A DNA stretch of 36,343 bases from a virus: IMG/VR virus record IMGVR_UViG_3300025674_000151, positions 1 through 36,343 of that record; one strand, 5' to 3'. Position numbers and translations under genes: made by a program. How positions within the stretch are numbered: position 1 is the stretch's first letter; each line of letters begins with the position of its first letter. Of this stretch, positions 83 through 36,261 are shown one piece after another. The notes beneath the pieces were generated by a model. It searched no databases and was not told the DNA's origin. It worked only from the letters and a program-made list of their open reading frames with translations.

Positions 83-481
83 TCCCGTAGGTTTTTTGGG
101 GCTTAGAACGCACTGAGGGCAGTTTCACGGATTACCAGGATATTTTGAGGTTAAAGGCCTTCCCGCTAGCCGAAGGTATTCATGTGGGTCAACGAGACCC
201 CGCCGCCCAGCGGCGCCGCTCTTTAAAAACCAGTAGGCTCAGCACTCCCTGCGGGGACTCCACGGAGCTAGTCGCTACCCATGAACAAGGTAGCTAGGCT
301 AGGGTGAGAGCTTGAACCGACGATGCGTAGGCACTCGCCGCTAGGCGAGCCGCTACGGGGGGAACCCCGCAGTGCTGCGCACTTGGAAGGGGGTCTAGGT
401 TACCTGCCGCTACTGCGGAAGCGCCTAGTCCACCGCTAGCTCAGACCCCTAGCCAAACAGCTAGGTGCGCCAACGGCAAGC

Positions 482-489
482 GTTTACAC
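482..489 (+). repeat. GTTTACAC octamer, non-coding copy 1
   Basis: This copy sits in a perfect hairpin-capable palindrome, AGCGT-TTAC-ACGCT (479-492). The octamer recurs in the same orientation at 1855, 2260, 2323, 3249, 4738, 5169, 6742 and 7852. It recurs inverted (GTGTAAAC) at 69, 9445, 15608, 22433, 25060 and 36330. Function unknown; see findings. Confidence 0.7.
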
Positions 490-843
490 GCTACCCAAGC
501 TACACTCACTAGCGGTGTAGTGATTCTCGCGAGAGAGAGAGGGAGTCCGAGAGCGGCAAACGGTAACTAGGCGACTGCCTGGGGAGTAGGTAGCACTACC
601 TTCGGGGTGACGAGTCGCCTAGGCTAGACAAGGCGAAACACCGCCAACGCACACGCACTAAAAGCAAGCTAACAGCCTAGCTTAGGTCTTCCTTCCTGGC
701 ATCCGAACCAGGGACCACACTCCCGTAGGAGTGCGGTCGAGCGACAGTCTCAGCTTGAACCCGGCGAAACTCCGAGTCCTCAGTGGACGCGAGTGCAGGA
801 CGGTGTAGGTAGGAACCTTGGCAGTCCTACCCTGACGAGCTAG

Positions 844-884
844 CCAACCACACACAACCACACGCAACCACAACCACACCAACC
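844..884 (+). promoter_or_regulatory. A/C-only leader before the 885 gene
   Basis: The 41 bases directly before the ATG are all A or C except one G, built from repeats of CAACCACA. There is no purine-rich Shine-Dalgarno sequence. It is the first of a series of similar leaders in the early block. Confidence 0.7.
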
Positions 885-2982: not shown

Positions 2983-3024
2983 CCAACCACACACAACCCA
3001 ACCACACACAACCACACGCACACC
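2983..3024 (+). promoter_or_regulatory. A/C-only leader before the 3025 gene
   Basis: 42 bases containing one G and no T between the stop codon and the ATG at 3025. This is the clearest example of the A/C leader class. Confidence 0.7.
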
Positions 3025-3213: not shown

Positions 3214-3262
3214 CCACACCACAACCACCACCACCCACAACCCACACCGTTTACACACAACC
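3214..3262 (+). promoter_or_regulatory. A/C leader with GTTTACAC octamer before the 3263 gene
   Basis: The spacer is built of ACCACC / ACAACC units. The octamer lies at 3249-3256, six bases before the ATG, as at 2323-2330. It decides the start of the next gene at 3263 rather than at an upstream in-frame ATG (3089) buried in the preceding gene. Confidence 0.65.
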
Positions 3263-35980: not shown

Positions 35981-36261
35981 TGGTGAAGGCGTTTTTGTTG
36001 GAAATTTTTAAGCGGGTAAATATATAGCGCGGAGCGAACAACCCCCCCGATGGGGGTCGGTCTTCCTGCGCGCATGATGCGCGGGCGCAAAATGCCCGAC
36101 TATCCTTTATAAACCGAAAAAACTGCCGTTCTTCGCTCGACTACCTCGGTCGTCGGGACGGCATCCGCCACAGTCCGCGCCACAGGCTGACGGGGGGACG
36201 GTCTAAGCGCCTATAGCGTAGCGGCCTTGGCCTGTCAAGCACTGGACCGACAATCCTGTGC

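Follow-up and report, generated by a model that had tools for sequence, protein, structure and literature searches.

The question raised by this locus is what kind of element occupies the 802 nt (83–884) preceding the early genes of a phage genome. A preliminary description took this region to be non-coding, structured and rich in CTAG, and left open a structured phage RNA or a DNA element. The window, i.e., the whole stretch of 36,343 nucleotides analysed here, is a circularly assembled virus record whose first 82 bases are identical to its last 82. It represents a T7-like phage coding for a single-subunit RNA polymerase, an integrase, a DNA polymerase and a T7-type terminase, and the closest relatives of its portal are found in Pseudomonas phage LUZ100 and Roseobacter phages.

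Position and conservation of the region

In LUZ100, a related integrase-bearing T7-like phage, host-type early promoters lie directly after the left terminal repeat, and the position of 83–884 matches this start of host-driven early transcription. Because the corresponding site in LUZ100 carries such promoters, the region probably forms, by analogy, the head of the transcript made first by the host polymerase; a search of the window near the region yielded no convincing promoter. The first early gene (885–1166, + strand; 93 aa, with a weak PHROG match) is preceded on the same strand by a CA-rich leader (848–884). Similar G-poor CA-repeat leaders (AACCACACACAACC), which are devoid of a Shine-Dalgarno sequence, recur 5' of the early genes (848–884, 1167–1265, 1854–1917, 2254–2340, 2608–2649, 2983–3024 and 3214–3262 of the window), and the leaders of the relative L054 are similar in style. 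A further motif, GTTTACAC, often extended to GCGTTTACACGC, occurs at 480, 1853, 2258, 2323 and 3249, i.e., in early intergenic leaders and once within the structured RNA (hairpin 479–492), and is a possible promoter or protein site.

That the region is non-coding is borne out by the lack of any + strand ORF of at least 60 aa and by single-base indels relative to L054, which was reached by way of its 98%-identical terminase and possesses the whole region at 83% identity. The comparison comprises two distinct sequences, the window and L054, near-identical contigs adding no information. In the sequence preceding window position 1 they are mostly 94–100% identical, while in 50-nt bins identity is only 56–78% from 83 to about 215 and 82–94% from about 300 to 850; divergence is greater than in the latter stretch both at 150–250 and in the early genes beyond 850. 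The conserved island hence spans about 216–850, narrower than the edges of 83–884 first given. In L055–L058, with terminase identities of 83–85%, the terminase region is followed by the early genes and the element is absent, and the element therefore seems restricted to one lineage. Searches with blastn against phages and plasmids gave chance matches only or none, genome scans for the pattern found nothing, and pattern scans of viral contigs recovered only the window and L054 lineages, plus a match in L212 that was set aside as chance, being without hammerhead geometry. A folding-energy scan of the corresponding gap in 26 relatives was uninformative. At the other end of the window, TTTTTAAGCGGGTAAATATATAGCGC (36005–36035) is recognisable left of the early genes in the diverged relatives L055 and L056, and is likely to be a promoter or end signal.

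Consensus fold and CTAG content

The run of hairpins first described across the region is present, and the whole region folds with an energy z-score of −3.9 against dinucleotide shuffles, about the same on either strand; this is suggestive of structure without being strand-specific or proof of an RNA. The decisive evidence is covariation, the check proposed in the preliminary description, which reveals compensatory changes between the window and L054. On the + strand, the RNAalifold consensus of 200–850 contains 17 two-sided compensatory pairs, as against 2.8±1.6 (maximum 6) in 100 column shuffles, and its energy is −257.3 as against −180±7.6 (z = −10.2). Since the two sequences compared are also those from which the structure was built, shuffles that kept variable and invariant column classes separate and were then refolded constitute a fair control. 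The reverse complement attains −255.6 against −200±7.5 (z = −7.3), with 13 compensatory pairs against 3.4±1.8. The + strand is favoured because covariation is stronger on it and because the hammerhead core considered below occurs on it alone; a strand test from G-U versus A-C changes between the two sequences had too few events to decide. When the model is held fixed, its 195 pairs are paired in 100% of cells in the window and L054 alike, and a shift of the partners by 1–3 columns lowers pairing to 33–43% and compensatory pairs to 0–1. Covariation thus lends strong support to one of the readings first offered, that of a structured RNA made from the phage's early region.

The consensus of the window and L054 places a multibranched domain on the + strand at 216–556, closed by a CCGCUC/GAGCGG helix (216–221/551–556). 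Its long-range helices (236–245/465–471, 268–271/461–464, 297–304/447–454 and 308–312/438–442) are invariant between the two sequences, the evidence for them being energy and conservation, whereas its local hairpins covary. Among the latter, GCUACC/GGUAGC (274–294) shows three consecutive compensatory pairs, and a branched arm (317–386) has compensatory changes in both its outer stem and its GGAA-capped hairpin (357–368). The GGAA-capped stem, originally drawn at 356–369, is real and kept in L054 with a compensatory G-C to C-G change. Two hairpins in 499–536 (499–506/514–521 and 525–528/533–536) contribute one compensatory pair each. Beyond the domain lies a long hairpin (567–622) with six compensatory pairs in total, whose 10-bp stem (567–576/613–622) is exactly as first described; in L054 four pairs in a row within it have both partners replaced with pairing retained, and an inner stem (578–589/596–606) lies within it. 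Compensation is overall concentrated in 274–294, 317–386, 499–536, 567–622, 713–738, 776–788 and stem I of the hammerhead. A search of Rfam at gathering thresholds and at E≤10 gave no family for the upstream domain. Short direct repeats within the RNA (309–318/752–761, 449–459/840–850 and 632–643/763–774) may be traces of duplication events that gave rise to parts of it.

The initial estimate of CTAG at about four times chance holds by base composition, with 16 observed in the 802 nt against 2.8 expected (about 5-fold), but shrinks to about 2.2-fold under the stricter control of dinucleotide shuffles (7.3±2.3; 16 reached in 2 of 2000). Likewise, the placement of CTAG largely inside paired segments is only mildly true: 8 of the 15 copies in 200–850 lie wholly in modelled stems, against a baseline of about 60% of bases paired overall. 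Fourteen of these 15 are conserved in L054. Elsewhere in the window CTAG is not rare (65 observed, 68 expected from a Markov model). Several long-range helices of the upstream domain consist of CUAG paired with CUAG, which offers an account of part of the excess. Other palindromes are depleted across 1–36343, with GATC absent (about 138 expected), ACGT seen 3 times (95 expected) and AATT 9 times (52 expected), a strong avoidance of these three that looks like an escape from restriction.

A predicted type II hammerhead at the 3' end

The 3' end of the region is predicted from its sequence to be a type II hammerhead ribozyme, a feature absent from the preliminary description. The 5' block (632–643, + strand, as for all parts that follow) comprises the 3' strand of stem II (GC, 633–634), GAAA (635–638) and the 5' strand of stem III (ACACCG, 638–643); GGCGAAACACCG at 632–643, which supplies the GAAA and the stem III strand, belongs to a stretch of about 45 nt that L054 shares without a change. 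The segment 801–807 carries the other strand of stem III (CGGUGU) and the cleavage-site A807 (C in L054), so that stem III is a perfect 6-bp helix (638–643/801–806), the cleavage triplet is GUA in the window and GUC in L054, and the predicted cut falls after 807 (A807|G808). Stem I (808–831; 808–814/825–831, 7 bp, loop ACCUUGGCAG) shows a change of G809–C830 to A-U in L054, where its terminal pair A814–U825 reads A/C. The core CUGACGA (832–838; CUGAUGA in L054), recovered in motif scans, is followed in 839–847 by the 5' strand of stem II (GC, 839–840) and the pseudoknot strand GCCAA (843–847). Both the 2-bp stem II (839–840 with 633–634) and the 5-bp pseudoknot between loop I and the tail (UUGGC 818–822/GCCAA 843–847) are conserved in L054.

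A complete hammerhead core, stems and pseudoknot are in this way conserved together with the fold. No core base is disrupted in either sequence, and the only ones that vary, N7 (C/U) and the cleavage-site H17 (A/C), do so within permitted bases. The hallmarks of type II, namely CUGAnGA (832–838), GAAA (635–638) and a UH site (806–807), are present with the stems in type II order. A short stem II and a pseudoknot between loop I and the 3' tail both figure in the published type II consensus, the pseudoknot being common, not universal (PMC3088659). Simulated DNA of the same composition, amounting to 200 Mb, contained 0 matches with equal stem and pseudoknot lengths.

The unusual feature is the closure of stem III, which is formed not by a short loop but by a structured insert of 157 nt (644–800) that folds in the consensus as an extended stem with hairpins (666–683, 695–712, 713–738 and 776–788) and has compensatory pairs in 713–738, 762–774 and 776–788. 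It is because of this large insert that Rfam models miss the predicted ribozyme, making it an example of how an insertion in a stem can hide one. Apart from chance hits, they return for the window and L054 only sub-threshold type II matches (22.2 bits at 762–849, and 17.4 bits; cut-off 37) in the wrong register, and the core so registered, GAAA at 766–769, was rejected as it reads GCAA in L054. The conserved GAAA at 635 was found by a motif scan permitting a long stem III. Also rejected was a partial hammerhead-like repeat (583–612) whose sequence L054 does not conserve. No second hammerhead, which would be a sign of circular RNA, was found at the 5' end; within the first 3.6 kb the only CTGANGA is that at 832.

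Calculated folds reveal pairings that compete with the ribozyme. Stems I and III have a probability of about 0.93 in the window; in L054 folded alone that of stem III is 0.004. The free consensus fold of 200–850 forms stems I and III and replaces stem II and the pseudoknot by 622–627/840–845, in which GGCUA (622–626, + strand) is the alternative partner of UAGCC (841–845). A free fold of the longer stretch 83–884 favours the ribozyme-blocking pairings 435–442/837–844 and 467–471/802–806, with a gain in stability of about 6 kcal/mol when pseudoknot and tertiary energies are left out. These alternatives may be regulatory, or an artefact of the tertiary energies absent from the calculation.

Possible roles of the structured RNA

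The reading that we regard as likely is that a large structured RNA heads the early transcript at its 5' end and is terminated by a type II hammerhead that would cut it free. We infer a course of events in which the early transcript would be made through the region, the hammerhead would fold by way of its three stems and the pseudoknot of loop I with the tail, and cleavage in the cell would take place between A807 and G808. An upstream RNA of about 600–800 nt would thereby be released with a 2',3'-cyclic phosphate end and would persist as a separate molecule. The early mRNA that is left would bear a 5'-hydroxyl and open with the stem I hairpin; next would come the CA-rich leader that precedes the gene at 885. 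Both 5'-OH ends and 5' hairpins retard RNase E-type decay, and the early mRNA may be protected by them. More tentatively, the RNA might represent a novel family of large, ornate non-coding RNAs of phages, self-freed from the early transcript by a built-in hammerhead, with the stem III insert fused into the architecture. To our knowledge, phage hammerheads, known since 2011, have no agreed purpose; the union of one with a conserved upstream RNA of about 400 nt heading the early genes suggests two purposes, namely to set a functional RNA free and to let the early mRNA process itself.

The competing pairings might instead be the point of the element, which would then be a regulated leader whose structured domain switches the ribozyme, with cleavage setting the stability or timing of the early mRNA: the tail GAGCUAGC (837–844) would block when paired with GCUAGCUC (435–442) or GGCUA (622–626), and the loop I pseudoknot would permit. 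Free folds favour the two alternative pairings, each of which is conserved without change, and the CUAG repeats, with 14 of 15 CTAGs conserved, furnish many interchangeable partners. Set against this, the alternative helices are invariant, leaving covariation silent, no ligand or trigger is known, and a simple switch would have no need of most of the 600 nt; we consider it unlikely. More doubtful still is that the hammerhead is an inactive relic and the structure serves as an mRNA 5' leader (in stability, translation or as a shield from RNase). This would accommodate the competing folds and the second copy of GGCGAAAC (763–770), whose degeneration in L054 (GCAA) indicates that copies can decay, but conservation of the true core block is 100%, the changes at N7 and H17 stay among the bases allowed there, and stem I carries a compensatory change. 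A DNA element near the genome end (a cruciform, or a packaging or replication signal) is suggested by the adjoining 82-base end repeat of the assembly, the CTAG palindromes and the good folding of the reverse strand, but is highly improbable given the hammerhead core on the + strand only, the stronger covariation there, the conserved and newly formed G-U pairs in stems, and the absence of the element from L055–L058, by which it is no general end signal.

Returning to a self-freed structured RNA, the more specific proposals of a packaging RNA, a decoy or a host-RNA mimic find no support, the weak hammerhead being the only Rfam family match. A parallel might be struck with ROOL and GOLLD (PMC12286853), which are likewise phage-encoded, 600–800 nt long, highly structured and of unknown function, whereas the region here has no tRNA nearby, heads the early genes and has a predicted ribozyme. 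By this analogy it is a guess that the upstream domain is a stable phage RNA acting alone, as is supposed for these two. The likeness is one of size, complexity and phage origin, and the region is not filed under either because no Rfam family match was found; covariance models of ROOL, GOLLD and OLE gave no match to the window or L054 at gathering thresholds or at E≤10. We know of no ribozyme in ROOL or GOLLD. No group I or group II intron was detected in the window by the respective models, a group II fragment in L054 being at chance level (14.3 bits; cut-off 34), and ARAGORN found no tRNA or tmRNA.

With the type II hammerhead (RF02276; Perreault et al. 2011, PMC3088659) the predicted ribozyme shares the order of GAAA block, cleavage site with stem I, and CUGAnGA block, the 2-bp stem II, the pseudoknot between loop I and the 3' tail and the intergenic phage context. 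It departs from it in the 157-nt multi-hairpin insert in place of the published short loop, in the structured region of about 400 nt that precedes it and in a score below the Rfam cut-off. In the literature searched, no hammerhead is described that combines a stem III insert of 157 nt with a large upstream RNA that is itself conserved. Phage genes flanked by clusters of hammerheads were described in 2011 (PMC3088659), and that context is already known.

In the early polycistronic mRNA of phage T7, RNase III cuts at structured sites; the present case parallels this as a T7-like early RNA cut at structured sites, with the difference that here the cutting would be by the RNA itself, as read from sequence features. 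The occurrence of hammerheads in early regions of relatives also speaks for the main reading, and the phage group includes one relative with several strung through its early genes. A hammerhead scanner run over 2.24 Mb of phage loci recovered five in this T7-like relative (L062), one each in L083, L179, L186 and L210, and a doubtful one in L032, as against one hit in 4.4 Mb of control. The five in L062 (13165–16500), two of type III and three of type I, lie between early genes and look like a means of self-processing of the early operon. That of L179 (8685–8749) is a type II hammerhead of 44.4 bits, which reaches the Rfam cut-off, directly upstream of a SprT-like gene.
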